From Bacteroidaceae bacterium (GTDB lineage Bacteria; Bacteroidota; Bacteroidia; Bacteroidales; Bacteroidaceae), in assembly GCA_017448965.1 (NCBI GenBank), contig JAFSKK010000042.1, forward strand, positions 21,561-85,560: DNA of 64,000 nucleotides, given 5' to 3'. The notes below the pieces were generated by a model. The model ran no database searches and was not told the origin of the DNA. It saw only the letters and a program-made list of their open reading frames with translations. Position 1 is the first letter of the stretch; each line of letters opens with the position of its first letter. Made by a program: the position numbers and the translations under genes. Below, one piece after another: positions 885 through 63,785 of this stretch.

Positions 885-989
885 GAGAAGGATTGAAGGA
901 TTGAAGAATTGAAGAATTGAAGTTTGGCTAACGCGATGCACGCATTCTGAATAGCTACTTCAATTTTTCAATTTTTCAATTCTTTAATT
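885..989. repeat. family 1 element, copy 1: 8-bp arrays around a GCTAACGCGATGCAC core
   Basis: On the plus strand about four units of the type AAGGATTG/AAGAATTG (889-922) precede a core with GGCTAACGCGATGCACGC (925-942). The core is followed by reverse-complement units of the type TTTCAATT (957-985). The two arrays can pair into a long hairpin. The element fills the entire space between the queA stop codon (990-992) and the folK start (884). The same core recurs at 38577-38682 and, in reverse, at 63665-63711. Confidence 0.85.
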
Positions 990-2072
990 TTAGTCAATGA
1001 TGAGCATCGCATCACCAAAGGTGCCAAACATGTAGTCACCCTTGATGGCTTCTTTGTAGGCCTCCATGATGAGGTCGTAGCCGCCAAAGGCTGTGACAAG
1101 CATGAGCATGGTGGAGAGAGGTGGTTGGAAGTTCACCACAAAGGCATCGGCCACCGTGAAGTCGTAAGGAGGGAAGATGAACTTGTTGGTCCATCCTTCA
1201 AATTCCTTGATGAAACCACCAGGTCCTACCGCCGTTTCGAGGGCACGAAGTGTGGTGGTACCTACGGCACAGACCTTATGTCCATTCTCTTTTGACTTGT
1301 TGACAATGTCGCAAGCCTCTTTGCCGATGAACATCTGCTCAGAGTCAGTCTTATGCTTCGTCAGGTCTTCCACGTCGATGCTGCGGAAGTTGCCGAGACC
1401 TGCATGCAAGGTGATGAAAGCCTGTTCAATTCCCTTGATTTCCATGCGCTTCATCAACTCGCGAGAGAAATGGAGTCCTGTGATAGGCACAGTGACAGCA
1501 CCTTCATGACGTGCGAAGATGTTCTGGAAACGTTCATGGTCTTCCTCTTCGGCAGGACGGCGTGTACGGATGTCATCGGGGATGGGTGCTTCACCAAGAT
1601 TGTAGAGAAGTTCTTTGAAGACATCGTGTGGGCCATCGTAGAGGAAGCGGAGGGTGCGTCCGCGCGAAGTAGTATTGTCAATGACTTCGGCCACCAGCGA
1701 CTCATCAGGACCGAAGTAGAGTTTATTACCGATACGAATCTTTCGGGCAGGATCGACGAGTACATCCCACAAGCGCAGTTCTTCGTTAAGTTCGCGAAGC
1801 AAGAAAACTTCGATGCGTGCTCCAGTCTTTTCCTTATTACCATAGAGACGGGCAGGGAACACCTTGGTGTCGTTGAAGACAAAGGAATCACCTTCATCAA
1901 AGTAATCGATGATGTCTTTGAAGAGACGGTGCTCGATTTCTCCTGTCTGCTTGTGTACAACCATGAGTTTGCATTCGTCGCGGTTGTAGAACTTGGTTTC
2001 GGGATTGTAGGTGCGAGGATAGAGGGCTATCTTCTCGTCTGGGAGTTTGAACTTGAATTGTGAAAGTTTCAT
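990..2072 (-). CDS. queA: S-adenosylmethionine:tRNA ribosyltransferase-isomerase
   Basis: QueA adds the ribosyl part of SAM to 7-aminomethyl-7-deazaguanine in tRNA, making epoxyqueuosine. The 360-residue protein has the family blocks [13 protein letters not shown] near residue 68, PITGLHFS near 196, [16 protein letters not shown] near 223, and the C-terminal [11 protein letters not shown]. The length is normal. It lies in a reverse-strand run with the tRNA-modifying genes truB and miaB. Both flanking spacers consist wholly of short-period repeat arrays: an 8-bp one downstream and a 7-bp one upstream. Confidence 0.96.
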
Positions 2073-2201
2073 ATTTTTATTTACTATTTGACCATTTACT
2101 ATTTACTATTTGGCTTTATTTGTCAATTTACTATTTGACCATTTACTATTTACTATTTGGCTTTATTTGTCAATTTGCTATTTGATAATTTGTTATTGAC
2201 T
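2073..2201. repeat. 7-bp-period array with a perfect 47-bp tandem duplication
   Basis: The whole truB-queA spacer is a low-complexity array of TTTACTA, TTTGACC and TTTGGCT-like units. A 47-bp block at 2080-2126 is repeated without change at 2127-2173. A decayed third copy follows (2174-2201) and runs into the truB stop codon. No promoter box is visible in it on the reverse strand. Confidence 0.9.
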
Positions 2202-2984
2202 TTATTCTTCTTTCTCCAGCGTCTGTTGTTCCAGCCATGCTGGAAATTCATTGATGTCCATGCAGTCTTGCAGGGTGTATTTCCCGATGCGTGTACGAAC
2301 TAATCCTGTCAGGTAGCCACCTGAACCGAGTGCTTGTCCGATGTCTCTTGCCAACGCGCGGATATAGGTGCCTTTGCTGCATACAACGCGGATGGTGAGT
2401 GAAAGGTGCTTCCCTTGCAGGTTGTCGCTTTGGTATTTGATGCGCTCTCGTGCATCGGCAACATCTTCCGTTTCGTTGTTTTCCACTTCACCGAAATGTA
2501 GGATTTCCAGTTCGTCGATGACCAGAATCTTGGGTTTCAGTTCCACCTCTTCCCCTTTCCGTGCATACTTGAAGGCGCGTTTGCCGTCAATCTTCACCGC
2601 AGAGAATGTAGGTGGCACTTGTTCGATGCGTCCCACAAACGTCTTGAGTTTCTCTTCGATTAGTTCACGCGTGATGTGTTCGGTAGGGTAGGTGGCATCT
2701 TCTGCTGTTTCCATATCGAAAGAGGGAGTGGTGGCGCCGAGTTTGATGGTGGCTACATACTCTTTCGTGTGGGCTTGCAGTTCGTCAATGAGTTTGGTGC
2801 TCTTTCCTGTGCAGATGATGAGCACTCCTGTGGCCAAAGGGTCAAGCGTGCCAGCATGTCCCACCTTCAGTTTTTTCACACCCAACCGATGTGAGAGTTC
2901 GCCTCTCACTTTCGCCACCACGTTGAAGGAAGTCCAGCGGTAGGGCTTGTTGAAGATGAGTATTTCGCCTGCTTGTGGATTCAT
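2202..2984 (-). CDS. truB: tRNA pseudouridine-55 synthase
   Basis: TruB isomerises U55 in the T-loop of tRNAs. The catalytic motif GHAGTLDPLATGVL carries the active-site Asp, and SKGTYIRALARDIG is the typical downstream block. Starting at 2984 gives 260 residues beginning MNPQAGEILIFNKPYRWTS, as in relatives. An upstream Met at 3041 would overlap uppP, so it is rejected. The gene follows uppP after 22 bp and is probably co-transcribed. Confidence 0.95.
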   Translation of the reverse strand: MNPQAGEILIFNKPYRWTSFNVVAKVRGELSHRLGVKKLKVGHAGTLDPLATGVLIICTGKSTKLIDELQAHTKEYVATIKLGATTPSFDMETAEDATYPTEHITRELIEEKLKTFVGRIEQVPPTFSAVKIDGKRAFKYARKGEEVELKPKILVIDELEILHFGEVENNETEDVADARERIKYQSDNLQGKHLSLTIRVVCSKGTYIRALARDIGQALGSGGYLTGLVRTRIGKYTLQDCMDINEFPAWLEQQTLEKEE

Positions 2985-3006
2985 CGATGAAACAGCAATC
3001 TTTCTT

Positions 3007-3822
3007 TTACAAGCAGATAGCCAAGATGCCGACGATGGCACAATAGATGGAGAAGTAGATGAGTTTACACTGCTTCACAAAGGAAATCATCCATTTGCAG
3101 GCAAAACATCCGCTGATGAACGCAGCAATGAATCCGACCACCAATGCGATGGTTGGGATTGATGTTGCTTCACCGTGTTCAGCGATGTATTCGGCGCTGG
3201 GTGCCACAATGTGCTTGAAGTCAAGCAGAGCCTCTCCCAAAATGGGTGGAATGACCATCAGGAAAGAGAATTGCGCCAGTTTCTGACGGCTGTTGCCCAG
3301 CAGCAGACCTGTTGCAATGGTGGAACCGCTTCGTGAGAGTCCTGGCAGTACGGCACATGCTTGTGCGACACCGATGATGAAGGCATGCAACGGAGAGATG
3401 CGCTCATGTTCCAGTGGCTTGTAGAAATGGGAGAGTGCCAAGAGGGCGGAAGTGACCAAGAGACAACAGCCCACAATGGTGAGGCTTCCCTGGAAGATTT
3501 CATCGATGTAGTCTTTGAAGAAAAGTCCGACGATACCGATGGGTATCATGGAGATGAGGATGTTGATGGCGTATTTCTGTGAGTCGTTCAATTGTCCATT
3601 CCATCTGAAGAGACCTCTGAAAATCCAAATCACTTCTTTCCAAAGAATAACGAGGGTGGAGAGAACGGTCGCCACATGGACAACGATATCGAACGTGAGG
3701 CCTCCCACTTCTTCCACACCCAACAAGTGCTGGCCAATCTGGAGATGGCCGCTGCTGCTGACGGGAAGATATTCAGTGAGTCCTTGTACAATGCCTAAGA
3801 TAAGTGCGTCAAGCCAATTCAT
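3007..3822 (-). CDS. uppP: undecaprenyl-diphosphatase
   Basis: This is an inner-membrane phosphatase that recycles undecaprenyl pyrophosphate for cell-wall and surface-glycan synthesis; it is also called BacA for the bacitracin resistance it can give. The 271-residue protein has [18 protein letters not shown] at residues 10-27 and [18 protein letters not shown] near 155, the two conserved active-site loops, plus about eight hydrophobic segments. It sits between DUF3098 and truB in a cluster common in Bacteroidales. Confidence 0.96.
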
Positions 3823-3864
3823 GTCTTTCTGTTTTTATGGTTGGATGAAGTTCAATTCGTTACA

Positions 3865-4092
3865 TCAGTTATTTTCCTTCTTGGCTGGCCAAAGGATGGC
3901 GACAATCTCAAAGAGGAAGCCGAACAGACATACCATCGGTGCCACCTTGATGCGCATATCGCTGAAAATGTCGGGGTTGAAAGCCTCCTCGGTGGTGGCA
4001 TCGCCCGACATCAGGATGAAGCCGATGATGATGATGAGAAATCCTATAGCGAGTAGGATGTAGTTGATGGTTGAAAATGCAAAGTTCTTCAT
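3865..4092 (-). CDS. DUF3098 family small membrane protein
   Basis: This 75-residue protein has two hydrophobic helices (about residues 11-29 and 50-68) joined by a loop with FNPDIFSDMRIKVAP, the hallmark of DUF3098. It lies 22 bp after ftsX and before uppP, its usual place in Bacteroidetes. The function is unknown; the context suggests a link to the cell envelope or to FtsX, but this is inference only. Confidence 0.85.
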   Translation of the reverse strand: MKNFAFSTINYILLAIGFLIIIIGFILMSGDATTEEAFNPDIFSDMRIKVAPMVCLFGFLFEIVAILWPAKKENN

Positions 4093-4114
4093 TATGATGT
4101 ATTTTTGAATGTTT

Positions 4115-4984
4115 CTAAATGTAGTAGAGTTCGTTGCTGCTCATTCTCAGATATTTATTGAGTGAGAAGAAGGTGCAGAGGAACGTGATGATGATGCCGA
4201 AAGTGAAGACTGCTGCCGTCACGATGATGATGGCTTGCAGGTCGATGACGGCTTGTATTTGTGGCTCGAAGGTGTGCAGCCAATACAGTCCTCCAATAAT
4301 CAAGGCGTCGGCAATGATGGCCGAAGCGACACCCAGTGTGAATGCTTGGGCAAGGAAGGGGCGGCGGATGAAGTTCCAACTGGCACCTACCAGTTTCATC
4401 GTATTGATGATGAAGCGTTTGGAGAAGATGGTGAGTCGAACGGTGTTGTTGATGAGGGCAAAAGAGATGTAGGTGAAGAGTGCCGCGATGATGAGCAGGA
4501 TAATGCTCACCTTGCGGATGTTGTCGTTCACCGACTTGATGAGGTCTTTGGAATAGATGACATCCACCACATCCGAGTTGCCTTTCAACTCCTTCACCGC
4601 AGCGTTGATGCTGTCGGGATTGGCGTGTGCCGCATTGATTTTGATCTCAAACGATGCTGTGTAGGGGTTCATACCGATAAATTCGGTGGGATCGACCCCT
4701 TGGGCTTTGATTTCTTCCACCAATGCATCCTCTTTGGAAATATACTCGACGCTTTTGGCGTAGGGAGCTTTCTTCAAGGCTTCCCCCATCTTGGCGATTT
4801 TGAGACTGTCCATCTCGTCGCTGATGAGTACACTTACGTTGATGTTCTCCCGCACGTAGTTGGAGAGGTTTTGTGCTGTGATGACAAACAGTACGATGAT
4901 GCCCAGCAACACCAGGACAAGCGTGGTGCTGATGGCAGCAGTGATAAACTGTGTGCTGAGGAATGAATGTCTTTTCTTACCCAT
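4115..4984 (-). CDS. ftsX: cell division protein FtsX
   Basis: FtsX is the membrane partner of the ABC ATPase FtsE and controls peptidoglycan hydrolases at the septum. The 289-residue protein has one N-terminal membrane helix (about 15-38), a periplasmic domain, and three C-terminal helices with NNTVRLTIFSKRFIINTMKLVGA, a typical FtsX stretch of which the core is RFIINTMKLVGA. Its start overlaps the end of miaB by 8 bp. ftsE is not in this cluster. An EnvC-like protein that could be its partner is encoded at 49736. Confidence 0.92.
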   Translation of the reverse strand: MGKKRHSFLSTQFITAAISTTLVLVLLGIIVLFVITAQNLSNYVRENINVSVLISDEMDSLKIAKMGEALKKAPYAKSVEYISKEDALVEEIKAQGVDPTEFIGMNPYTASFEIKINAAHANPDSINAAVKELKGNSDVVDVIYSKDLIKSVNDNIRKVSIILLIIAALFTYISFALINNTVRLTIFSKRFIINTMKLVGASWNFIRRPFLAQAFTLGVASAIIADALIIGGLYWLHTFEPQIQAVIDLQAIIIVTAAVFTFGIIITFLCTFFSLNKYLRMSSNELYYI

Positions 4985-6287
4985 TTACTTCTATGCCTTT
5001 AAGAGTTGCCGAACTGGATTCTGTCACTTTAACTGTCACGAAATCGCCGATGTGGTGAGTGCCTCTGTCGAACACGACTACCTTGTTTTGTGGGGTGCGT
5101 CCGAACAATTGTTGCTTGCTGCGTTTCGATACGCCTTCCACCAGCACCTCAAACGTCTTGCCGATATCTTTCTTGTAGCTCTCTGCTGAAAGATCGTTCT
5201 GCAAGGCGATCATCTCGTTCAGTCGCTGCAATTTGGTTTCTTCGGGCACATCATCTGGCAGATGCTTGGAGGCGTATGTGCCAGGACGTTCCGAGTATTT
5301 GAACATGAAAGCGGAGTCGTAGCCCACTTCCTTCATCAGCGAGAGAGAGAGTTGGTGGTCTTCCTCCGTTTCAGAATGATAACCTACGAAGATGTCGGTG
5401 GTCAAGCCGCAATCGGGAATGATGCGGCGGATAGCAGCCACACGGTCGAGATACCACTCGCGGGTGTACTTCCGGTTCATCAGTTTCAGGATGCGGTTGC
5501 TGCCACTCTGCACGGGCAGGTGGATGTGGCGGCAGATATTGGGGTGGGAAGCAATCACTTCCAGCGTTTCGTCGCTCATGTCCTTGGGATGAGAAGTGGT
5601 GAAACGGATGCGCATTGTGGGAACATTTTCTGCCACCATTGCCAACAGTTGTGGGAAACCGACTTCCCCGCATTGGTAGCTGTTCACGTTTTGCCCCAGC
5701 AGCGTCACCTCCTTGAATCCCTTGTTCTGCAGGTCTTTCACCTCGTTGAGGATGCTGTCCACCTCGCGGCTCCTTTCCCTGCCTCTTGTGTAGGGCACAA
5801 TGCAGTAGTGGCAGAAGTTGTTGCATCCACGCATGATGCTCACAAAGCCGCTCACGTGGCTGCCGCATACACGCTCAGGGATGACATCGCGGTAGGTCTC
5901 CGTCGTGCTGAGTTCCACGTTGATGGCCTTCTCACCCATCTCTGCCGATGCAAACAGTTCAGGCAGAGACAGATAGGAGTCTGGTCCAGCCACGAGATTC
6001 ACGTGGTGATGCTCAATGAGGTCTTCCTTCACACGTTCAGCCATACATCCCACCACACCGATGATGAGTTGCTTGCCCTTCTTCTGCAGCGCGTGAAGGG
6101 CTTCAAGCCGGTTGTATATTTTGTTTTCTGCGTTCTCACGCACAGAACATGTGTTGAGGAGAATGGCATCCGCTTCTTCGAGTGTATCGCACGTGTGATA
6201 GCCTGCCATCTTCATGATGGAGGCAATAACTTCACTGTCCGCCACATTCATCTGGCAGCCATACGTCTCAATAAAAAGTTTCTTCAT
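4977..6287 (-). CDS. miaB: tRNA-2-methylthio-N6-dimethylallyladenosine synthase
   Basis: MiaB is a radical-SAM methylthiotransferase acting on A37 of tRNAs. The N-terminal domain has ETYGCQMNVADSEV and further Cys residues in NTCSVRENA and GVVGCMAERV for the auxiliary cluster. The radical-SAM motif is MRGCNNFCHYCIVPYTRGRE, and a TRAM domain ends the 436-residue protein. It is the first gene of the long reverse run, about 35 nt after a TAnnTTTG promoter box. Confidence 0.96.
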   Translation of the reverse strand: MKKLFIETYGCQMNVADSEVIASIMKMAGYHTCDTLEEADAILLNTCSVRENAENKIYNRLEALHALQKKGKQLIIGVVGCMAERVKEDLIEHHHVNLVAGPDSYLSLPELFASAEMGEKAINVELSTTETYRDVIPERVCGSHVSGFVSIMRGCNNFCHYCIVPYTRGRERSREVDSILNEVKDLQNKGFKEVTLLGQNVNSYQCGEVGFPQLLAMVAENVPTMRIRFTTSHPKDMSDETLEVIASHPNICRHIHLPVQSGSNRILKLMNRKYTREWYLDRVAAIRRIIPDCGLTTDIFVGYHSETEEDHQLSLSLMKEVGYDSAFMFKYSERPGTYASKHLPDDVPEETKLQRLNEMIALQNDLSAESYKKDIGKTFEVLVEGVSKRSKQQLFGRTPQNKVVVFDRGTHHIGDFVTVKVTESSSATLKGIEVNG

Positions 6288-6328
6288 CCAACGATTGTGT
6301 ACAAAACCCTACTTTATGTAAAACGCTG

Positions 6329-6336
6329 CAAAGGTA
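6329..6336 (-). promoter_or_regulatory. -7 box of the miaB operon promoter
   Basis: The reverse strand reads TACCTTTG, a match to the Bacteroidetes -7 consensus TAnnTTTG. The expected transcript start is near 6322, giving a leader of about 35 nt for miaB. A TTTG at the reverse complement of 6351-6354 is only 14 nt upstream, closer than usual, so the -33 element is uncertain. Confidence 0.6.
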
Positions 6337-6342
6337 AGAATT

Positions 6343-6431
6343 TTAATTGACAAATGATGATGGAGCCTTGACAATTTTACCTTTCAGATGGTTAATTATC
6401 AGCGGTTCATGGTCAATTGTCAATTATTTCC
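6343..6431. repeat. 7-bp-period array between divergent promoters
   Basis: Units GGTTAAT, TATCAGC, GGTTCAT, GGTCAAT, TGTCAAT and TATTTCC follow each other in strict 7-bp phase from 6390 to 6431. At the other end AATTGACA (6345-6352) is the reverse complement of TGTCAATT (6418-6425). The array fills the space between the -7 boxes of miaB (reverse) and of the membrane-protein gene (forward). Confidence 0.7.
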
Positions 6432-6433
6432 AC

Positions 6434-6441
6434 TAACTTTG
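6434..6441 (+). promoter_or_regulatory. -7 box, forward
   Basis: TAACTTTG matches the Bacteroidetes -7 consensus. It lies inside the upstream part of the open frame that begins at a TTG at 6417, so translation must start downstream, at the GTG at 6471. No good -33 TTTG at standard spacing is seen; that position is occupied by the 7-bp array. Confidence 0.6.
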
Positions 6442-6470
6442 CAGCCGATTTTGAATTTTCCCATACAAAC

Positions 6471-7487
6471 GTGACACTTAATTTTCAAAGAAAAATAGCG
6501 GAAAGTCAGGCAGTTCTTCCTGTAACGGGCGTATTGATGTTGGTGTGTTGGTTCGTCTTTCCACCCATTCATTCGTTGCCGAACGGGATGGGGCTTGACT
6601 ATGGGTTGTGGAGTTCTCTGCCTTCCTTTCTGAGAGAGGGGTGGGGAGCCTTTTGGTTCAGTTTCGGTTGTGCTGGGTTGGCGGTTTATCTGCTGGCGGA
6701 GTTGAACAACACCAACGTGCTGCTGAGGGTCAGTGCTCGCACGCTGAGTGCTGCGATGGCCCTTTTGTTGGCGGTTTCTGTTCCCTGCCATCAGGCTCAA
6801 GGGCCAGGTTGTGTGTTGATGGTGTGTTCGTTGCTCTCGTTCTTTCCGCTCTTCACCACCTACCAGTTGGCAAGTCCGATGCATACGTTCGTGGCTTACC
6901 TGTTGCTCTCAGCGGCATCGCTTGTGTTCCCCAAGTTGCTTTGGCTGGTGCCCATCTATTTGCATATTCAGGGTTATTTCCGTGCGCTGTCTTTCCGCTG
7001 CTTTTTGGCCTCCATCATGGCGACGGTTCTGCCGTATTGGTTTTATGGGGGTGTGGCTGTTCTGACGGGCACGCTCGACGGCTTTGTCTCTCATGTGATG
7101 ACGGTAGTGAATGTGAGCGGTTATGAGGGCCTCTCGTTGGATGGACGTGATGTGCTCATGTTTATCTTTGTGGTGTTGACTTTCATTTTGGGAAGTGTGG
7201 ACTTTTATGTCAATCAATATTTAGATAAAACGCGAGTGCGCATCATCTATAACGCGCTGATCATACATGGGATAGCCTTGATTGTTGTCATTCTTTTGCA
7301 ACCTCAATATTTTTGGACTTTTTTACCCATATTGCTGGTCGATACCGCTGTGTTGTTTGGTCATTTCTTCACATTGACCCATACGCGGTTCTCTCACATC
7401 AGTTGCATCGTTTGGGCTTTGCTGGCTGTGGTGGTTGTGGCGGCTCAATATTTATGCAACGAGCATCTGGGATTCGTCCTTTTCTGA
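6471..7487 (+). CDS. multi-spanning membrane protein of unknown function
   Basis: I do not recognise a named family. The 338-residue product (GTG start) has roughly ten hydrophobic segments and little else, with a short basic N-terminus (TLNFQRKIAESQ). The start at 6471 is preferred because the only in-frame alternative lies upstream of the promoter -7 box. The protein is followed after 36 bp by a YqaA-type membrane protein, so the two may be co-transcribed. The length and topology resemble uncharacterised Bacteroidales inner-membrane proteins; a role cannot be assigned. Confidence 0.7.
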   Translation: MTLNFQRKIAESQAVLPVTGVLMLVCWFVFPPIHSLPNGMGLDYGLWSSLPSFLREGWGAFWFSFGCAGLAVYLLAELNNTNVLLRVSARTLSAAMALLLAVSVPCHQAQGPGCVLMVCSLLSFFPLFTTYQLASPMHTFVAYLLLSAASLVFPKLLWLVPIYLHIQGYFRALSFRCFLASIMATVLPYWFYGGVAVLTGTLDGFVSHVMTVVNVSGYEGLSLDGRDVLMFIFVVLTFILGSVDFYVNQYLDKTRVRIIYNALIIHGIALIVVILLQPQYFWTFLPILLVDTAVLFGHFFTLTHTRFSHISCIVWALLAVVVVAAQYLCNEHLGFVLF

Positions 7488-8028: not shown

Positions 8029-8103
8029 CTAAACCGACGTCCCCGACATCGGTCGACCGACATCGGGGACATCGGTGAACCGACATCGGGGACGTCGGTT
8101 TAG
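8029..8103. repeat. GC-rich palindromic element, copy 1 (in a 372-bp gene-free stretch 7980-8351)
   Basis: The element opens CTAAACCGACGTCCCCGAC and closes with the reverse complement GTCGGTTTAG. Between them CCGACATCGGGGACATCGG-like units repeat around GGTCGACC. It is much more GC-rich than the flanks. Weaker outer arms are visible (CCACTTCC at 7983, GGAAGTGG at 8111). A near-identical copy lies at 40909-41003, and a short hairpin at 44507-44538 has the same outer arms. The rest of the stretch, 8104-8351, holds only the promoter at 8228 and a leader of about 90 nt. Confidence 0.9.
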
Positions 8104-9084: not shown

Positions 9085-9194
9085 GTATCGCAAGCTCCAT
9101 TTGTTGGAAGTTAAAAGAAGTTAGAGAAGTTAAAGACAATACCTAAACAACAGTATAACATACGTCTTTAACTTCCGAGCGTAGCGATAACTTC
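9085..9194 (+). repeat. family 2 element, copy 1: 9-bp arrays with conserved ends
   Basis: The left end (about TATCGCAAGCTCCATTTG, 9088-9105) leads into GAAGTTAAA-type units (9107-9136). GAAGTTAAAGAC (9126-9137) is the perfect reverse complement of GTCTTTAACTTC (9164-9175). The right end CGAGCGTAGCGATAACTTC (9176-9194) closes it. Both ends and the unit sequence are shared with the reverse-strand copy at 63473-63632, although the loops differ. Confidence 0.8.
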
Positions 9195-9232
9195 TAAAAA
9201 TTAAAACAATTCAACCTAAAACAAAGTATAAC

Positions 9233-38576: not shown

Positions 38577-38682
38577 ACAGATAGAATTGAAGAGTTGTAG
38601 AATTGAAGAGTTGAAGTTTGGCTAACGCGATGTACGCATTCTGAATAGAACATCAATTTTTCAATTCTTCAATTTTTTAATC
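38577..38682. repeat. family 1 element, copy 2
   Basis: Units GAATTGAA/GAGTTGAA in 8-bp phase (38586-38617) are followed by the core GTTTGGCTAACGCGATGTAC (38617-38636) and GCATTCTGAATAG, then reverse-complement units (38652-38677). The core differs from copy 1 by one base over about 33 bp. The array ends at the dapB stop codon, so it fills the dapB-lepB spacer. Confidence 0.85.
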
Positions 38683-39438: not shown

Positions 39439-39482
39439 CTTGGAATCCCTTGTTTTTAACTTAACATTCAATAAAAACACTG

Positions 39483-39490
39483 CAAAGTTA
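39483..39490 (-). promoter_or_regulatory. -7 box of the dapB promoter
   Basis: The reverse strand reads TAACTTTG; a leader of about 38 nt follows. The -33 position lies in a 7-bp repeat array. Confidence 0.65.
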
Positions 39491-39496
39491 GTGAAA

Positions 39497-39527
39497 AGTT
39501 AGGAGTTGGGAGTTAGGAGTTGGGAGT
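39497..39527. repeat. 7-bp array between the divergent dapB and DUF2851 promoters
   Basis: GTTAGGA GTTGGGA GTTAGGA GTTGGGA runs in strict 7-bp phase (an exact 14-bp duplication at 39498-39525), with one decayed unit on each side. It occupies the whole space between the two -7 boxes, including both -33 positions. Confidence 0.8.
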
Positions 39528-39534
39528 TTTTCAT

Positions 39535-39542
39535 TACCTTTG
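39535..39542 (+). promoter_or_regulatory. -7 box for the DUF2851 gene
   Basis: TACCTTTG lies 23 nt before the start codon, which implies a leader of about 15 nt. Confidence 0.6.
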
Positions 39543-39564
39543 AACAAATTTTAATAAAAAAGCG

Positions 39565-40869: not shown

Positions 40870-40908
40870 GCCTCCACTTCTTCACCGAGTGTGCCTCCGC
40901 CGAGGTGC

Positions 40909-41003
40909 TGTAACAGCCTCCAAACCGACGTCCCCGACGTCGGTCGACCGACATCGGGGACATCGGTGAACCGACATCGGGGACGTCGGTTTGGAGGCTG
41001 TGG
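40909..41003. repeat. GC-rich palindromic element, copy 2
   Basis: The same structure as at 8029: AAACCGACGTCCCCGACGTC at 40921 closes with GACGTCGGTTTGG at 40982. Here the outer arms are longer (ACAGCCTCC at 40909 and GGAGGCTGT at 40994). About 70 bp agree almost base for base with copy 1. It lies after DUF2851 and before the convergent tRNA terminator. Confidence 0.9.
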
Positions 41004-41027
41004 AGTAGCCGATTGAGAGGTAGTGGA

Positions 41028-41356: not shown

Positions 41357-41516
41357 CAGAAAACTCGCAGAAAGTTGCTGGTTCACGCGAAGAAAGTTTT
41401 TATTTCACACAGAAATCACAGAAAACACAGAAAAGCGGAGCGTTCTCAACTGGTAATAGGGCTGAGGTTCATCCCTTTTTTCTGTGTTTTCTGTGATTTC
41501 CGTGTGAGCTTAAAAA
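41357..41516. repeat. 9-bp arrays in a 29-bp inverted repeat around a core
   Basis: CACAGAAAA-type units in 9-bp phase (about 41407-41436) are matched by a reverse-complement array TTTTCTGTGTTTTCTGTG and on (about 41478-41508). The core between has AGCGGAGCG near 41435. Weaker GCAGAAAG units extend left to 41357. It is single copy in this window but has the array-core-array layout of the other families. Confidence 0.75.
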
Positions 41517-41540
41517 AATTTTTCGGTGTGAAAAATCATC

Positions 41541-45387: not shown

Positions 45388-45429
45388 TCCTTCAATCTTT
45401 AACCCTTAAACTCTAAACTTTAAACTTTA
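45388..45429. repeat. 7-bp array filling the dgt-BASS spacer
   Basis: CTTTAAC CCTTAAA CTCTAAA CTTTAAA CTTTATA in strict 7-bp phase (45397-45431). It begins just after the BASS start codon on the reverse strand and includes the dgt stop codon. Confidence 0.75.
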
Positions 45430-46743: not shown

Positions 46744-46747
46744 GGTG

Positions 46748-46755
46748 CAAAGTTA
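46748..46755 (-). promoter_or_regulatory. -7 box of the dgt promoter
   Basis: The reverse strand reads TAACTTTG; the expected start coincides with the dgt start codon at 46743-46741. Confidence 0.65.
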
Positions 46756-46780
46756 AAGACTTTTCAGTGAAAAACGAGCA

Positions 46781-46870
46781 ACTAAAAACTAAAAGTTTGA
46801 GTCGCCTCTCCTTTTTACATGCCAACAACATACTTTAACTTTTAGTTTTTAGTTTTTAGTTTTTAGTTTT
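46781..46870. repeat. 7-bp arrays (inverted) between divergent dgt and dut promoters
   Basis: AACTAAA AACTAAA units at 46781-46794 face TTTTTAG-type units (ACTTTTA GTTTTTA GTTTTTA GTTTTTA GTTTTCG) at 46838-46872. The arrays are reverse complements of each other, and the right one ends at the dut -7 box. Confidence 0.85.
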
Positions 46871-46872
46871 CG

Positions 46873-46880
46873 TACCTTTG
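46873..46880 (+). promoter_or_regulatory. -7 box of the dut promoter
   Basis: TACCTTTG; leader of about 12 nt. An in-frame TTG at 46878 falls in the box, so the ATG at 46899 is the start. Confidence 0.65.
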
Positions 46881-46898
46881 CAACCAAATTTTAGGGAT

Positions 46899-47330
46899 AT
46901 GGAAGTAAAAATCATCAATAAGTCACATCACCCGCTACCACAGTATGCCACGCCCCAGTCGGCTGGTATGGATTTACGTGCCAATCTCGATGCACCCATC
47001 ACGTTGGCTCCTATGGCTCGGGTGCTTGTTCCTACGGGATTGTTCATGGCACTACCTGCTGGTTATGAGGCACAAGTGCGCCCACGTTCGGGTTTGGCCA
47101 TCAAGAAGGGGGTTACGGTGTTGAACACGCCAGGCACCATCGATGCGGATTATCGTGGCGAAGTGTGTGTCATTCTGGTCAACCTGTCCAACGAGCCTTT
47201 CGTCATCAATGATGGCGAGCGCATTGCTCAGATGGTCATTGCCAAGCATGAGCAGCCGACACTGGTGGAGGTTGAGGTGCTTGACGAGACGGAGCGTGGT
47301 GCAGGTGGTTTCGGACACACAGGTGTGTGA
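46899..47330 (+). CDS. dut: dUTP diphosphatase
   Basis: Converts dUTP to dUMP, which keeps uracil out of DNA. The 143-residue protein has all five trimeric dUTPase motifs: [43 protein letters not shown] and [11 protein letters not shown] (the last has His where many have Ser). It lies just upstream of a TPR-DUF4292-EnvC-like operon. Confidence 0.96.
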
Positions 47331-49678: not shown

Positions 49679-49696
49679 AAGGTGTCATTCTCAATG

Positions 49697-49732
49697 GTCA
49701 AATCTCAGTTGTTAAATCTCAATAGTCAATCG
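49697..49732. repeat. 7-bp array between DUF4292 and EnvC-like genes
   Basis: GTCAAAT CTCAGTT GTTAAAT CTCAATA GTCAATC runs in 7-bp phase and fills the space up to the start codon at 49736. Confidence 0.7.
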
Positions 49733-51334: not shown

Positions 51335-51347
51335 CCTCCCCCAAAAA

Positions 51348-51398
51348 ACTTTCAATTTTCAATTTTAATTGTCAACTTTCAACTTCCACATTTCCACC
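51348..51398. repeat. 7-bp array overlapping the start of cinA
   Basis: Units CTTTCAA TTTTCAA TTTTAAT TGTCAAC TTTCAAC TTCCACA TTTCCAC in 7-bp phase from 51349. The array lies across the 5' end of the next gene and supplies its TTG start codon. Confidence 0.75.
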
Positions 51399-55684: not shown

Positions 55685-55691
55685 GCCTGTC

Positions 55692-57397: not shown

Positions 57398-57431
57398 CTC
57401 TGTTTGTTTTCTTTTCGTCTGTAATTGGTTG

Positions 57432-57439: not shown

Positions 57440-57478
57440 CATAAAAAAACATAGCTGTATATAAAAAGAAAGGTTCTT

Positions 57479-57510: not shown

Positions 57511-57566
57511 CCCGATATTTCCCAACTTCAGGTAACTCGTTTCTGTGAGTTACTCATCATCAAGAT

Positions 57567-58760
57567 ATGAAAAAGATTTTTTTGACAGTTGTCGTGGCAA
57601 GTCTTGCCACGCTGCCGATGTGGGCAGAAATTGACGAGACGCAGGAAATCAACGTGCCTTCCGAAGAGAGTATTGAAGAGTCAGAGTTTGAGCCTAATGG
57701 AACACCTGGCTCTGGTTTTATCACGGAACTTGTGAATAACAGTTTGGAGAGCGCGATGGCCAATGCTCCCGCTCCTGAGGGCAAACCGCAGTTGGGCAGG
57801 AAGCTGACCGACTATGCCAGTGCACCCAAGTTTGGTGGTTACTTTATTGGCAAGTATGCCTACAGCGACCAGGACGGTGCGAAGGGTGGTACAGGCTTCA
57901 GCCAGCGACTCATCCGTGTGTATGTGGATGGCACCATCCTCACCGACTTCAAGTACCGCATTCAGGCACAGGTGAACAACTCCACTTTCCACATGAAGGA
58001 CTATTTCGTGGAGTGGTCGCATTGGAAGGAACTCGCCATCAAGGTGGGTCAGTACAAGCGTGCCTTCCTCTTCGAGAATCCTTACAATCCCTGGGATGTG
58101 GGCGCTGGAGACTATTCTCAGATTTCCAATTGCCTGGCGGGTATCAGCGACAAAGATGGCAACGTCGGCAATGGTGGACGTGACCAGGGTTTGCAAGTGC
58201 AGGGTGACCTCTTCCCTGCCAAGAAAGATGGACACCGCTTCATCCACTATCAGTTGCAGGTGATGAACGGTCAGGGCATCAATGGTGGTGATAAGAATGG
58301 TCACAAGGACTTCATCGGCTCGTTGCAGGTGCAGCCCATCAAAGATCTCTTCATCGGTGTGTTTGGCTGGACGGGCGACTATGTGAACAATGCAGGCGTG
58401 GAGACCGACCGCAACCGTTGGGCTGCCTCCGTGAAGTATGAACACAAGGATTGGACAATTCGTGCCGAATATGCTCATGCCCAGGGCATACTTGCCAATT
58501 ACCAGGGAGAAGGGAAGGCGGATGGCTGGTATGCCACAGTCGGTGTTCCTTGTACTCCTTGGCTCAAAGTGTATGGCAAGTATGATGCTTACCGTGCCAA
58601 CAAGAAGTGGGAGTCCACCAAAACCATCTATAGCATCATTCCTAACTTCCAGATTCACAAGAACCTCCTCATGCAGGTGCAGTACAACCACGTGCATGAC
58701 CGCAATCTCCCCTATAAGGACTACAACGAACTCTGGGCAGAGATGTACGTGCGATTCTGA
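57567..58760 (+). CDS. OprP/OprO-like porin
   Basis: The 397-residue protein has a signal peptide ending LPMWA, an acidic N-terminal segment, then a beta-barrel (YDFVGYFIG-like start at GGYFIGKYAYSDQD; FKYRIQAQVNNSTFHMKDYF; LAIKVGQYKRAFLFENP; last strand LWAEMYVRF). This matches the phosphate-selective porin O/P family. In Bacteroidetes members often take up phosphate or other anions. The Na/Pi transporter at 41541 may be functionally related, but is not linked. Confidence 0.85.
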   Translation: MKKIFLTVVVASLATLPMWAEIDETQEINVPSEESIEESEFEPNGTPGSGFITELVNNSLESAMANAPAPEGKPQLGRKLTDYASAPKFGGYFIGKYAYSDQDGAKGGTGFSQRLIRVYVDGTILTDFKYRIQAQVNNSTFHMKDYFVEWSHWKELAIKVGQYKRAFLFENPYNPWDVGAGDYSQISNCLAGISDKDGNVGNGGRDQGLQVQGDLFPAKKDGHRFIHYQLQVMNGQGINGGDKNGHKDFIGSLQVQPIKDLFIGVFGWTGDYVNNAGVETDRNRWAASVKYEHKDWTIRAEYAHAQGILANYQGEGKADGWYATVGVPCTPWLKVYGKYDAYRANKKWESTKTIYSIIPNFQIHKNLLMQVQYNHVHDRNLPYKDYNELWAEMYVRF

Positions 58761-58909
58761 TAAGAATAACAGGCACAAGCAAACATAAACGTGTGACGTG
58801 GAGTCATAAAGGGTGTTGCGTGGGAAACATAAACAGCCCATGCGATAAAGTGCATCACTCTGAAAACAAAAAAAGAGGTTCAAAATCGTTTTGTTTGAAG
58901 TTTTTTTAC

Positions 58910-58917
58910 TACTTTTG
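58910..58917 (+). promoter_or_regulatory. -7 box for the regulator gene
   Basis: TACTTTTG with a TTTG at 58890-58893 (spacing of 16, short). It gives a leader of about 45 nt. Confidence 0.5.
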
Positions 58918-58968
58918 CATCGTCATTTCTTCCAATATAGTAAGAAATGTTTCTAAACATAAAGAGAA

Positions 58969-60327
58969 ATGGTGATAGAATTGAGTAATGGAACCTTGTT
59001 CCAAGTGTCTGTCTGGGCAGTGTTGTTTGCCACTCTTCTGGTGTTGGTGTGTGCGTATGTGCTGTGCCGTCTGGTGGCACGGCGTGAGCGGTCAAAGCAT
59101 AGTGTGGAGATGGCTCGTGTGGAGCATGAACACAGGCAGACGCTGGAAGTGGTGAAACAGCAGACGCTGGCAAGGGTGAGCCAAGACTTGAGGGCACCCA
59201 TCATGTTGCTGATTGGTTCTTTGCAACAGATGGCAGAAGAACCCCTGGGCGACGATGTGGGCGGCCGTGTCCAGATGATGCTGCGTAGCGCACAGATGTT
59301 GCTGCATCAGGTCAATATACTTTCGGCAGGTATGGGGGCAGTTCCTGCTCCGTCGGCATTAACGAGCGTGGCTGGGGTGCAGCGGGGAACCGTCGCAACA
59401 CCCGCCCGTGAAACTTCTTCGGGAACACCTACAACCAGTACGGAAACGGCACAATTGGTAGGTATTGACGACCATAATGCTGCCATGGTGTCCAGCAAAG
59501 AGATGGAAGCGTATCAGGAAGAGGAGGAAACCAATGAAGGTCAGCGCATGACCTTGCTGATGGTGGACGATAGTGCTGACATGTGCCGCTTTGTGCGTGA
59601 TTATTTCCGGAAAGACTATAATGTGATTACCGCCAGCAATGGTGAACAGGCGTTGACCTGTCTGGAAGAGAACGACGGTATCGGCTTGGTGGTGAGCGAT
59701 GTGACCATGCCTAAGATGGATGGTTTGGAGTTGTGTCGTCGTGTCAAGACCGATTTGCGTTGGTCACACATTCCTGTGATTCTGCTGACAGGGCGTAGGA
59801 GTGAAGAAATCGAGGTGGAAGGCCTGAAACTTGGTGCCGACGACTACATCACGAAACCTTTCAATGTGGAAACGCTCCGTTTGCGTGTGAAGAAACTGAT
59901 AGAGAAGAAAGAGAGCCGCCAACGTCAGTTCCGTGAGAAGATGGATGTGGCACCCAGCGAAATTACCATCACCTCGGTGGACGAACAGTTCATCCAGCAG
60001 GCCATCAAGATCTGTGAAGAGCACATCTCCGACACGGAGTTCTCGGTGGAGGTGTTGGGACATGAATTGTCGCTCAGCCGCACCTATCTCTACAAGAAAC
60101 TCATCAACATCACGGGCAAGGGTCCTGCGGAGTTCATCCGCACCATCCGCATGAAGCGAGGCAAGCAGTATCTGGAGAAGACAGGCATGTCAATGTCGGA
60201 TATTGCGGCTGCTTTGGGTTATAGCAATCCGAAGCGTTTTACCGAGAATTTCAAGACAGAATATGGCATGTCACCCTCGGAGTATGCCAGGAAGATTCGC
60301 TCAGAGAAGACACCTCTGACGGTTTAG
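58969..60327 (+). CDS. degenerate hybrid two-component regulator (membrane helix, pseudo-kinase DHp, receiver, AraC output)
   Basis: The 452-residue protein has a membrane helix (10-35), a helical stretch with RVSQDLRAPIMLLIGSLQQM (69-88) that mirrors the phospho-accepting helix of hybrid kinases but has Gln72 in place of His, and no ATPase domain. A low-complexity linker (125-180) leads to a full receiver domain (VDDSADM, phospho-acceptor Asp234 in VVSDVTMPKMDG, Lys286 in ITKPF) and an AraC-type DNA-binding domain (about 345-445, LSRTYLYKKLINITGKGPAE, DIAAALGYSNPKRFTENFK). It looks like a hybrid regulator that lost its sensor and kinase core. Confidence 0.85.
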   Translation: MVIELSNGTLFQVSVWAVLFATLLVLVCAYVLCRLVARRERSKHSVEMARVEHEHRQTLEVVKQQTLARVSQDLRAPIMLLIGSLQQMAEEPLGDDVGGRVQMMLRSAQMLLHQVNILSAGMGAVPAPSALTSVAGVQRGTVATPARETSSGTPTTSTETAQLVGIDDHNAAMVSSKEMEAYQEEEETNEGQRMTLLMVDDSADMCRFVRDYFRKDYNVITASNGEQALTCLEENDGIGLVVSDVTMPKMDGLELCRRVKTDLRWSHIPVILLTGRRSEEIEVEGLKLGADDYITKPFNVETLRLRVKKLIEKKESRQRQFREKMDVAPSEITITSVDEQFIQQAIKICEEHISDTEFSVEVLGHELSLSRTYLYKKLINITGKGPAEFIRTIRMKRGKQYLEKTGMSMSDIAAALGYSNPKRFTENFKTEYGMSPSEYARKIRSEKTPLTV

Positions 60328-60363
60328 TTGATTCAACTGTTATTTAATTCATAAGAAAAGAAA

Positions 60364-61638
60364 ATGAGAGATTTTAAGGATGTGAAAGTGGCTGTGGCAG
60401 GTACAGGCTATGTGGGTCTTAGTATTGCTACGCTGCTGGCACAGCATCATCAGGTGAAGGCTGTGGATGTGATTCCTGAGAAGGTAGACCTCATCAACAA
60501 CAAGAAGTCACCCATTCAGGATGAGTATATTGAGAAGTTTTTGGCAGAGAAGGAACTGAACTTGACGGCCACGCTCGACGGTCGTAAAGCATACAGCGAT
60601 GCCGACTTTGTGGTCATTGCCGCGCCCACCAACTACGACCCTGTGAAGAACTATTTTGACACCTCTCATGTGGAGGAAGTCATCGACCTCGTGCTGGAGG
60701 TGAACCCCGATGCCGTCATGGTCATCAAGTCCACCATTCCCGTGGGATATACGGAAGGTTTGTACCGCAAGTACGGCTATACGCTCAAACTACTCTTCTC
60801 GCCCGAGTTCCTGCGCGAGAGCAAGGCACTCTACGATAACCTTTATCCTTCACGCATCATTGTTGGCTCACCCAAGCGCATTGAAGTGAAATATGCCGAC
60901 GAACTGCGCGAGGCAGCCAAGACCTTTGCGGAGCTGCTGAAGGAAGGTGCCATCAAGGAAGACATTGACGTGCTGCACATGGGCTTGACGGAGGCAGAAG
61001 CCGTGAAACTCTTTGCCAACACCTACCTTGCCCTGCGTGTATCTTACTTCAACGAACTCGACACCTATGCCGAGGTGAAGGGCTTGGATGCCCAGGCTAT
61101 TATTCAGGGCGTGGGTCTTGATCCACGTATCGGCACCCATTACAACAATCCATCCTTCGGTTATGGAGGCTACTGCCTGCCAAAGGACACGAAGCAGCTT
61201 CTGGCCAACTATCAGGATGTGCCGCAGCAGATGATGACCGCCATCGTGGAGAGCAACCGCACCCGCAAGGACTTCATTGCCGACCGTGTGTTGCAGATGG
61301 CAGGCTATTACAGTTACTCCAACCGCATCCGGTGGAGTCAGGATGTGGAGAAGGATGTGGTCATCGGTGTGTTCCGTCTCACCATGAAGAGCAACTCCGA
61401 CAACTTCCGTCAGTCCTCCATCCAAGGCATCATGAAGCGCATCAAGGCGAAGGGCGCTACCGTCATCATCTACGAACCGACATTGGCCGATGGTACTACT
61501 TTCTTTGGTTCCAAAGTGGTCAATGACCTCCAGAAGTTCAAGGAACTCTCCCAGGCCATCATCGCCAACCGCTACGACGCCTGTCTTGACGATGTGCAGG
61601 AGAAAGTGTACACCCGTGATATCTTCCGTCGTGACTGA
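60364..61638 (+). CDS. ugd: UDP-glucose 6-dehydrogenase
   Basis: Makes UDP-glucuronate, a donor for capsule and lipid sugars. The 424-residue protein has the NAD motif [19 protein letters not shown] at 9-27, [12 protein letters not shown] near 146, and the catalytic Cys in [14 protein letters not shown] near 267. C-terminal UDP-binding blocks include [16 protein letters not shown] and IYEPT. It lies 36 bp after the regulator gene and 26 bp before the glucuronidase gene. Confidence 0.95.
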
Positions 61639-61664
61639 TAACATCTTGAACACAAATCTTAAAG

Positions 61665-63449
61665 ATGAAAAAGACTATTCTCTCCTTCATTTTACTGACA
61701 GTCTGCCACCTTTCTTGGGGGCAGACTTTTGAATTGCGTTTGCTCAACCACTGGGACAACCCCAATGGCACCGTAGAGCGTGGCTATGCAGGCCGTTCCA
61801 TCTGGAAGTGGGACGAGATTCCCGCGAACAAGAAGTCGATGCCTCAAGCCTTGAAGGCACGGTATGAAGAGTATGGCCGCATCAATCAGCAGTATGGCAT
61901 CAACGGCACCGTGCTCAACAACGTGAATGCCAAGCCCATTGCGTTGTCCACCCCCATGTTGCTCAAGACGAAGAAGATTGCCGACATCCTCCGTCCTTAT
62001 GGCATCAAGGTGTATCTCTCTGTCAACTTCGCTTCCCCCAAGGCATTGGGCGACCTCAATACTGCCGACCCGTTCGACCCCAAGGTGCAGCAGTGGTGGA
62101 AGAAGAAGGCGGATGAAATCTACCGGCTCATTCCCGACTTCGGTGGTTTCTTGGTCAAGGCAAACAGCGAAGGTGAACCAGGCCCGATGGACTATGACCG
62201 TACTCATGTCGATGGTGCCAACATGCTGGCTGCCGCCCTTCAACCTCATGGCGGCATCGTCATGTGGCGCGCCTTTGTCTATTCTGCCAAGGGAGGCGAC
62301 CGCGCCAACCAGGCCTACGAAGAGTTCATCCACTTCGATGGGCAGTTTGCCGACAATGTCATCATCCAAATCAAGAATGGCCCTATTGACTTCCAGCCAC
62401 GTGAGCCTGTCTCGCCTCTTTTTTTCGGACTGAAGAAGACCAAGATGATGGTGGAGTTCCAGATCACCCAAGAATACACAGGCGAAAGCATCCACACCTG
62501 CTTCCTTGCCCCCATGTGGCAAGAGTTCTTCCAGACCCTGAAGATGGGGAACGCTTCTCACCCAGCTCTCGCCCAGAACGGTTCCCCCGTTCTGCCCAAC
62601 CTCATCGGCATAGCTGGTGTCGCCAACATCGGTGACACCCCCAACTGGACAGCCAACGATCTCGCCATGGCCAACTGGTATGCCTTCGGACGTGTCGCCA
62701 ACGACCCGACTACTTCCTCGCAAGAGATTGCTTCAGACTTTCTGCGTGAATACTATGGAACTACCGACGAAGGTTTCATCCGTCCCATGACCCAACTGCT
62801 CCTCAAGAGTCGCGAAGCCGTGGTTGACTACATGATGCCGCTTGGTCTTCACCACATCTTTGCTGCCGACCATCACTATGGGCCGGAGCCTTGGTGCGAC
62901 AGGAAAGGGTGGCGTGAAGACTGGTTGCCACGCTTCTACCATCGTGCCGACTCCATCGGTTTAGGCTTCAACCGTACCGACCACGACGAACCATGCTTGG
63001 CAGGCAATGCAGGCTCCAACAACGTGGGGCAATACCCAGAGCCTTTGCGTACATTATATAATAATAAGGAGACGTGTCCAGAAAACCTCATCCTCTGGTT
63101 CCACCATGTACCATGGGACTACACCATGCGCAATGGCCTCTCCCTTTGGGACAACCTCTGCTACACCTACGACCGTGGTGTACGGCAAGCCAGCGACTTC
63201 GTGAAGACGTGGGAGGAAATGAAGCCATACATCACTTCTGAACGCTACGAACAGCAGCTACGCCGTTTCCAGCGTCAAGCCAAAGACGCCCAGTGGTGGC
63301 GCGATGCCTGTCTGCTCTACTTCCAGCAGTTCTCCCGTCGTCCTTTGCCACCCGATAGTCCCGCCTTCCACTACACATGGGAACAGGTGAAGAACTATCA
63401 CCTCCGCATGGACAACTACACGGCAGCAGACATCGACAAACTGCCATAA
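61665..63449 (+). CDS. GH67 alpha-glucuronidase without the N-terminal domain
   Basis: Removes 4-O-methyl-glucuronic acid from xylo-oligosaccharides. After a 20-residue signal peptide (ending SWGQ) the 594-residue protein goes straight into the catalytic barrel: LRLLNHWDNPNGTVERGYAG (25-44). Catalytic residues are visible: Glu169 in KANSEGEPGP, Asp242 in NGPIDFQPREP, and Glu270 in FQITQEYTG; their spacings (73 and 28) equal those of Cellvibrio GlcA67A (292, 365, 393). The usual N-terminal domain of about 120 residues is absent. The C-terminal domain looks complete. Confidence 0.93.
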   Translation: MKKTILSFILLTVCHLSWGQTFELRLLNHWDNPNGTVERGYAGRSIWKWDEIPANKKSMPQALKARYEEYGRINQQYGINGTVLNNVNAKPIALSTPMLLKTKKIADILRPYGIKVYLSVNFASPKALGDLNTADPFDPKVQQWWKKKADEIYRLIPDFGGFLVKANSEGEPGPMDYDRTHVDGANMLAAALQPHGGIVMWRAFVYSAKGGDRANQAYEEFIHFDGQFADNVIIQIKNGPIDFQPREPVSPLFFGLKKTKMMVEFQITQEYTGESIHTCFLAPMWQEFFQTLKMGNASHPALAQNGSPVLPNLIGIAGVANIGDTPNWTANDLAMANWYAFGRVANDPTTSSQEIASDFLREYYGTTDEGFIRPMTQLLLKSREAVVDYMMPLGLHHIFAADHHYGPEPWCDRKGWREDWLPRFYHRADSIGLGFNRTDHDEPCLAGNAGSNNVGQYPEPLRTLYNNKETCPENLILWFHHVPWDYTMRNGLSLWDNLCYTYDRGVRQASDFVKTWEEMKPYITSERYEQQLRRFQRQAKDAQWWRDACLLYFQQFSRRPLPPDSPAFHYTWEQVKNYHLRMDNYTAADIDKLP

Positions 63450-63472
63450 AAAATTAAAGAATTCAACTTTCG

Positions 63473-63632
63473 GAAGTTACCGCTTCGCTCAGGAGTTAAG
63501 GGAGTTATAGTAGTTAAAGCCTATACACTGTCAACTGTGGAGAGGAGTTTTCACGCCAGCATTACATTCGGCTTTAACTCCTCTAACTCCTTTAACTTCT
63601 TTAACTCCAAGCAAGTGGAACTTGCGAAACTT
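63473..63632 (-). repeat. family 2 element, copy 2 (in a 336-bp gene-free stretch 63450-63785)
   Basis: Read on the reverse strand it has the same ends as the copy at 9085: GTTTCGCAAGTTCCACTTGC (63629-63610), 9-bp units GAGTTAAAG/GAAGTTAAAG, and the close CTGAGCGAAGCGGTAACTTC (63492-63473). AGTTAAAGCC (63512-63521) and GGCTTTAACT (63570-63579) pair. No gene is seen here; the remainder of the stretch is family 1 copy 3. Confidence 0.8.
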
Positions 63633-63637
63633 GAGTT

Positions 63638-63785
63638 AAAGAATTGAAGAATTGAAAAATTGAAGTTATTTATCCGATTGTTCCTCAATAGGTGCATCGC
63701 GTTAGCAAAAACTTCAATCTTTCAATTTTTCAATTCTTCAATTCTTCAATTCTTCAATCTTTCAATCCTTCAATTTTTCAATTCT
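63638..63785. repeat. family 1 element, copy 3, with a ten-unit 8-bp array
   Basis: Three AAGAATTG-type units (63638-63664) precede a core that, read in reverse, has GCTAACGCGATGCACC (63706-63691). Then comes an unbroken array of about ten units YTTCAATY (63711-63788). The core is only partly like copies 1 and 2, sharing about 16 bp. The array supplies the stop codon (TGA, 63786-63788) of the gene cut by the window edge. Confidence 0.85.

Follow-up and report, generated by a model that had tools for sequence, protein, structure and literature searches.

The question raised by the stretch of DNA considered here, a window of 64 kb from contig JAFSKK010000042.1 of a Bacteroidaceae bacterium, is what generates the short tandem arrays, with units of 7, 8 or 9 bp, that make up many of its intergenic spacers. 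The window belongs to a 3.03-Mb draft genome that is 85.6% complete and whose nearest named relatives, judged by one protein, are rumen metagenome bins of Prevotellaceae/Bacteroidaceae. In our view, each array is probably an arm of a small, apparently selfish hairpin element, one of a large family with kinship to the intervening sequences (IVSs) of rRNA genes, and some members of this family enclose a gene of the PF05635 family (IVP, 23S-rRNA intervening-sequence protein). We regard the reading of the arrays as elements as well supported, and the molecular steps proposed for them as not.

The arrays themselves are real and strongly non-random. In a lag test in which a score of at least 13 counted as an array, the 8,252 bp of spacers in the window contained 2, 4 and 2 arrays at lags 7, 8 and 9, respectively, while none was found at these lags in the 55,722 bp of coding DNA or in any of 100 dinucleotide-preserving shuffles of the spacers. 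No arrays were detected in the window spacers at lags 10 to 13, and few at lags 14, 16 and 18, which are multiples, or at 15 and 22-24. Twenty further stretches of the same genome gave 5, 24 and 21 arrays at lags 7, 8 and 9 versus 0.05 per shuffle, with 0.006, 0.003 and 0 arrays per kb of their coding DNA, but these stretches are biased because they were picked for 8-mer hits. A first-pass annotation of the window had assigned a period to 14 sites, and within 160 bp from each coordinate that period is the strongest lag at 12 of them; Tandem Repeats Finder (TRF) likewise reports arrays at most of the sites. The signal is weak at 6343 (score 7) and 9085 (score 9) and marginal at 49697, where lag 7 ranks second with a score of 6, and no lag-7 signal was found in the 160 bp from 52681. 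The proposed layout of array, core and reverse array holds at about half of the sites, those at 39497, 45388, 49697 and 51348 being one-sided or nearly so, and the exact filling of spacers from stop to start codon is seen, according to our own gene calls, at 38577-38682, 45388-45426 and 51335-51368. Because the gene caller was home-made, spacer edges may be off; for example, the spacer of the element at 885 is given as 430-989. The assertion that unit sequences differ between spacers was too strong, because the three 8-bp sites all share AATTGAAG and a core motif; one unit is also common to two of the three 9-bp sites. As for orientation, 25 of 25 two-sided arrays lacking an open reading frame (ORF) run from a purine array through the core to a pyrimidine array, although some orthologues were counted twice.

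The connection with IVSs lies in what some of these arrays enclose. In one element of this genome, with GTGAAAA arms and the ends TTTGCTACCGC/GCGGTAGCAAA, a PF05635 search showed that the approximately 400 bp between the ends are an IVP gene. The draft contains five full-length PF05635 genes, plus two weak matches in longer proteins, and the IVP protein belongs to PF05635/TIGR02436 (TIGR02436 E 2e-37, 127.7 bits, cut-off 24). All five full-length genes lie between neighbouring genes and between arrays, the units of which are different in each case (GGAGTTAAA, AAAATGT, AATTGAAG, GTGAAAA and TATTTAC), and four of these five units are also found in ORF-less arrays of the window or of the other stretches from this genome. 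We scored flank inversion as the best local alignment of the 5′ flank with the reverse complement of the 3′ flank, taking at least 30 as a pass, and obtained 69, 51, 69 and 35 for four of the loci and only 24 for the fifth (L197; loci are cited by L numbers and other genomes by G numbers). At L199, a single long stem formed by the arms surrounds the ORF (fold z -6.6). IVP elements and ORF-less elements also have inner ends in common, namely GAAGTTGCCATGCGGCGTGT (20/20), GTGAAAAATTTGCTACCGC (19/19), for which the partner is an ORF-less hairpin, and GGCTTTAACTCCTATAACTCC (21/21), so that in three families of this genome ORF-less copies share their ends with a coding parent. The weak PF05635 matches L201 and L202, in proteins of about 220 amino acids, could possibly represent a second, non-IVS branch of the family, and they were not counted among the IVP loci.

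The same arrangement is found beyond this genome. For the genus, 34 loci were scanned (L196-L200 and L203-L231), of which four without an ORF match to a five-sequence model were dropped; the remaining 30, like the 30 loci examined across Bacteroidota, are best-scoring matches rather than a random draw. In the genus set, 22/30 IVP loci have inverted flanks, compared with 7/327 control genes, among which the genome's own IVP genes were kept, and 14/200 mispaired IVP flanks; the Fisher p-values, 1e-22 and 5e-15, respectively, are too small because orthologous loci were counted apart. Bacteroidota-wide, the figure is 10/30 versus 4/300. A third set, mostly cyanobacterial, consists of 24 of 34 matching plasmid records (six of the other ten repeat included relatives and four are partial matches), and here 12/24 loci pass, versus 3/300 for mispaired flanks. 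The passing plasmid loci include a number of cyanobacterial ones, as well as Azospirillum and Riemerella, which bears out the likeness to cyanobacterial heptamer repeats suggested in the first-pass annotation. The usual polarity of the flanks is seen at 23/24 plasmid, 22/30 genus and 22/30 phylum loci. In addition, both neighbours lie on the strand of the IVP gene at all 29 genus loci with called neighbours (orthologues included), compared with a base rate of 30/50 for small genes of this genome, and at 16 of the 21 plasmid loci annotated on both sides, where the neighbour pairs include cas10/cmr3, cas6/cas4 and iron-sulfur genes. The IVP protein is under purifying selection: dS was usable for 10 of 34 pairs, and in these the ratio of nonsynonymous to synonymous substitution (dN/dS) is 0.04-0.28. 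IVP/S23 is present in 105 of 148 Bacteroidota genomes (E 1e-15).

An Rfam scan of 88 IVP loci placed a single one, L242, inside a 23S rRNA gene; because the other 87, including those of this genome, are without rRNA, we speak of IVS-like elements and not of rRNA IVSs. L242 (640-1115 of this locus), from the Azospirillum lipoferum plasmid AZO_p2, is a PF05635-like ORF in sense orientation within the 23S rRNA gene, and the insert has the heptamer arms GAGGACGGATGACAGAGGACGGAGGACAG / CCGTCCTCTGTCTTCTGTCATCCGTC and a flank score of 46. It is thus a classical 23S rRNA IVS with heptamer-array arms. This IVS is absent from the plasmid gene table that we used. A similar case has been described in Coxiella burnetii, where available passages of PMC4990558 report tandem heptamers before the S23p ORF of the rRNA IVS, their number varying between strains, together with a 28-bp terminal stem and excision by RNase III. 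What such rRNA IVSs share with the present elements is a PF05635 ORF, usually in sense, that lies in the loop closed by terminal inverted repeats, together with the tandem heptamers in the arms seen in Coxiella and L242. It is because the Coxiella IVS has this plan that we take the elements to be IVS-like, although mostly in protein operons. They differ from rRNA IVSs in that nearly all lie between protein genes, use many different 7-9-bp units and mostly lack an ORF, and in that RNase III processing is reported for rRNA IVSs but only proposed for the present elements.

Under the IVS-like reading, the full-length form would consist of an array, usually purine-rich, an inner end, the four-helix-bundle IVP ORF, a second inner end and the inverted array, and it would sit, mostly in sense, between the stop and start codons of protein operons. 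The elements in the window would then be ORF-less miniatures, standing to the full-length form as a miniature inverted-repeat transposable element (MITE) does to its parent, or else arms that have survived alone. The sense orientation and the stem around the ORF suggest that the elements act in RNA. Base pairing between the two arms within the mRNA might create a substrate of the RNase III type, so that the insert could be tolerated by the host operon, which is what has been reported for rRNA IVSs. Slippage may change the number of units, while template switching between inverted arms, which according to available parts of PMC8604942 yields arm homogenisation and spacer inversion, may keep the arms matched and flip the cores. 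New arm types could arise through exchange with other copies via shared cores.

The elements are dispersed in the genome, and their arms and cores recombine. One 8-bp element gives 84 matching rows in its own genome, a figure that includes the self match and matches of the same places on both strands. Allowing one mismatch at most, we counted 22 copies of the core GGCTAACGCGATG and one of the same pattern read backwards. When the arms around this core were sorted by eye, we found four kinds, namely AATTGAAG arrays at 12 occurrences, GGGGGAGG-type arms at 5 and a AATGTATA array and an AGTTTAA array at one each, with no clear arm at the remaining three, and in other species related cores have AATGTATA or GTGAATA arms. 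The same kind of spacers is also occupied by another hairpin family, which measures about 140 bp, has CCCTCCCC/GGGGGAGG arms and contains the inner parts TAGAATC...CATTCTA (L092 10971 and 12239, which are sister copies, and L025/L026/L028 after dapB).

Comparison with relatives reveals considerable turnover at orthologous sites. In the spacer at 38577..38682, bordered by genes that we take to be dapB and lepB, 21 of 37 orthologous spacers counted by eye are short and element-free; the window and L009 have an 8-bp element, L014, L021, L022, L030 and L036 have 7-bp elements, and the rest have other arrays or hairpins. Against the sister genome G001, which is 89-93% identical, we compared 78 orthologous spacers in stretches chosen for their 8-mer content. 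An array is present in at least one of the two genomes in 36 of these spacers. They range from identical pairs, through pairs that differ in the number of units, to arrays confined to one of the genomes, and roughly ten spacers, judged by eye, have another array or element. The IVP locus at L092 12239 is matched in the sister by a CCCTCCC-type hairpin without IVP. The most informative case is L095 versus L177, with two sites 0.5 kb apart and only 6 differences in 776 flanking bases. At the first site, a 29-bp core is identical and an outer remnant, TTTCAATTTTAC, is kept in both genomes. The arms, however, consist on both sides of AATTGAAG repeats in one genome and of AGTTTAA repeats in the other, so that 8-bp units stand opposite 7-bp units. 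Exchange of arms via the shared core is our preferred reading of this site, not a proof. Inversions of the core between orthologues were seen by eye at L105 13024 and at G005/G006 44695. The first-pass annotation had proposed an active element family, and dispersal, presence or absence at orthologous sites and ends shared with IVP-coding elements all support it as regards dispersal. Neither of the two outcomes that this annotation had named as refuting its claim was observed: shuffled DNA gives no arrays, and at the same loci relatives do have them. The annotation had also proposed slippage primed by hairpins, which is plausible for changes in length and for the matching of arms but cannot explain a new unit, because both arms differ around an identical core in the sister.

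Several observations weigh against the IVS-like reading. Flank scores are below 30 at 8/30 genus, 12/24 plasmid and 20/30 phylum IVP loci, with a score of only 14 in Gemmatirosa (L249), and the flank polarity is reversed or absent at 8/30 genus loci (L200 of this genome included) and at 8/30 phylum loci. A neighbour lies on the opposite strand at 5 of the 21 plasmid loci (L237, L245, L250, L251 and L253), and at L238, on a Pseudanabaena plasmid, the IVP gene between cas6 and cas4 has very long AAAAGCT arrays before it and AAAAGCC arrays after it that are direct and not inverted. One array type is present in 6 of 9 congeners without a PF05635 match, although many of these drafts are incomplete, and the counts of this type and of IVP genes are not correlated (rho 0.22, p 0.15, 45 genomes). 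Array spacers are not enriched in the co-directional class (38/51 versus 192/264), and within that class one orientation of the core outnumbers the other by only 19 to 10, orthologues being counted. One-sided arrays do not fold beyond shuffles, no convincing target-site duplication was seen by eye in filled and empty orthologous pairs, and no recombinase, transposase or reverse transcriptase could be tied to the family, Y1_Tnp being the only transposase searched for. Finally, S23p of Coxiella is probably not made and is decaying, according to available passages of PMC4990558.

An unlikely alternative, although one that some of these points favour, is that the elements are ordinary MITEs of an unrelated DNA transposase and that the IVP genes are chance passengers between their arms. 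Terminal inverted repeats, the lack of ORFs and a dispersed, intergenic distribution are what one would expect of MITEs, as is the missing correlation between IVP and array numbers. Chance passengers do not, however, account for IVP genes of Cyanobacteriota and Pseudomonadota with such flanks made of unrelated units, one of them inside 23S rRNA, or for genus IVP genes that are in sense with both neighbours and under purifying selection; moreover, a Y1 transposase was not found in this draft, other transposase families not having been searched.

It is rather improbable, but would have wide implications, that the IVP elements are RNA-level selfish elements in which an Avd-like IVP oligomer holds the hairpin and a reverse transcriptase or polymerase recopies a 7-9-nt stretch, perhaps by a telomerase-like or slippage step, so that arms are exchanged around a fixed core. 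If this were true, a single widespread process would have left its traces in the form of the heptamer arrays seen in Cyanobacteria, Bacteroidota and others. As a candidate partner we rejected the sole PF00078 reverse transcriptase gene, since it lies in a separate cassette and no link to arrays was seen. This cassette (L131:4-2316), which also encodes a formylglycine-enzyme-like protein and an HRDC-domain protein, presumably resembles a diversity-generating retroelement.

A shade less probable still is that the arrays are regulatory hairpins of the host, acting as attenuators, as stems that stabilise mRNA or as boxes upstream of promoters, and that selection maintains them while their sequence is free to drift. 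In favour of this possibility is the site at 46744, where 16 of 21 congeners, counted by eye, retain a distinct array in one and the same place next to a -7-like box despite units as different as ACTAAAA, AATTAGG, AGTTAGG, GTGAAAA, GAATGAA, GAGTGAA and others, and two-sided elements do fold, as RNA, beyond shuffles. On the other hand, the one-sided arrays do not, the arrays are distributed over the classes of spacer as the base rate predicts, and the dapB-lepB spacer is most often short and without an element. Local slippage alone, with arrays growing in situ from chance seeds, inverted partners made by hairpin-primed copying and no mobile family, is the least probable explanation, since even though orthologues differ in length (+13 bp at 45388, much longer in the sister at L092 17145) and L095 4412 is seed-like in one genome with three extra units in the other, it is largely refuted by dispersed cores, the same core recurring mostly with the same arms, as well as by whole elements present or absent at orthologous sites and by the differing arms of L095/L177.

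Among known systems other than rRNA IVSs, those close in appearance include the short tandemly repeated repetitive (STRR) heptamers of cyanobacteria. According to the available text of PMC4679880, 7-bp tandem arrays occur in spacers of Cyanobacteria, some Gammaproteobacteria and a few Bacteroidetes (TAACTGA in Beggiatoaceae), without an evident mechanism. Such arrays in spacers are found here as well, but those described in that text are direct and are given no link with IVP genes; the terms 'four helix', 'S23' and 'intervening' have no occurrences in it. The BrickBuilt MITE of Porphyromonas gingivalis also has a tandem repeat, of strain-variable unit number, in an inverted-repeat intergenic element, but available parts of PMC4596501 describe an unrelated 23-nt unit, an array that is central and not in the arms, and ends like those of the IS5 family; with 7-9 bp units and another layout, the present elements are not BrickBuilt. 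The Avd protein of diversity-generating retroelements is a homologous four-helix-bundle protein (the IVP protein P0001 has a sub-cut-off match to the Avd model, at 3.5e-12), a likeness stated in passages of PMC10053308, although no reverse transcriptase or variable repeat was seen beside the IVP elements of this genome. Repetitive extragenic palindromes (REP) and bacterial interspersed mosaic elements (BIME), with their REP-associated tyrosine transposases (RAYT), are likewise short, dispersed and intergenic, but the arms here are arrays, and we rejected a REP/RAYT origin given that no Y1_Tnp gene was found in this 85.6% complete draft.

We found no report of a link between tandem arrays and IVP genes outside rRNA in one open-licence library, where most papers were judged from their listings and subscription journals are not covered; the nearest is PMC4990558. 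Heptamer spacer arrays are known from several phyla and IVP/S23 is a common family without known function. Taken together, they acquire a testable frame, that of IVS-like elements mostly in mRNA operons. By a rough estimate, there would be tens to hundreds of elements per genome, with arms that can differ between DNA segments otherwise about 99% identical. This frame would explain why the spacers are so rich in repeats, would offer a natural system for the study of template switching in inverted repeats, and may also account for similar unexplained repeats in cyanobacteria.

Within the window itself, three 8-bp elements are found. The first, at 885..989, has the structure (GAAGAATT)n - core GTTTGGCTAACGCGATGCACGCATTCTGAATAG - (TTCAATTT)n and an RNA fold z of -8.9 on the + strand; the second is that of the dapB-lepB spacer (38577..38682), which is the same element as in L009; and the third, at 63638..63795, consists of a AAGAATTG array, a core with GCTAACGCGATGCAC and a 10.5-copy CTTCAATT array, in a spacer that in the sister has a CGGATTGAA-type 9-bp element instead. 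The 9-bp elements are located at 9085..9205, with (GAAGTTAAA)n - core - CTTTAACTTCCGAGCGTAGCGATAACTTC and a shorter version in the sister; at 41400..41510, with (ACACAGAAA)n - core GCGGAGCG... - (TTTTCTGTG)n (the fold of 41357-41520 gives z -6.9 / -8.3); and at 63473..63612, where the arms are of the GGAGTTAAA type and the inner end CATTCGGCTTTAACTCC is as in the IVP elements L196 and L209.

The 7-bp arrays are more heterogeneous. The TATTTAC array at 2073..2201 holds a 47-bp second-order duplication and shares 32/36 identity with the 5′ arm of the IVP element L200, while no array was scored in the shorter spacer of the sister at this site. A weak, 7-bp-phased inverted repeat, AATTGACA / TGTCAATT, lies at 6343..6430, with no TRF row and a fold z of -5.2. 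At 46780..46870, an element AACTAAA ... TTTTAGT adjoins the box TACCTTTGCA, and congeners have different units in this position. The remaining arrays are a one-sided AGTTAGG/AGTTGGG array at 39490..39530, in a divergent spacer where the sister has a GTGAAAA element; a one-sided CTTTAAA array that fills its spacer at 45388..45426, where the spacer of the sister is 13 bp longer; a degenerate 7/14-bp array, TCTCAATGGTCAAA, at 49689..49729 (TRF 77%); and a TTTCAAT array at 51347..51385, whose counterpart in the sister also has TTATCAA units. Rfam recognised only two tRNAs in the window and no RNA family at the arrays, so the elements were not assigned to a known RNA family.

In the divergent spacers 39439-39564 and 46744-46967, as well as in L102 6386-6553, arrays abut TAnnTTTG-like boxes on both sides and look as if they had replaced the upstream part of the promoters. 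In addition, a palindromic repeat, CCGACATCGGTCAACCGACATCGG, with a 23-bp period unlike the 23-nt BrickBuilt consensus, is present at 8032-8099 and 40936-41008, and of the eight relatives searched, most contain matches to the region 40902-41008 at many sites.

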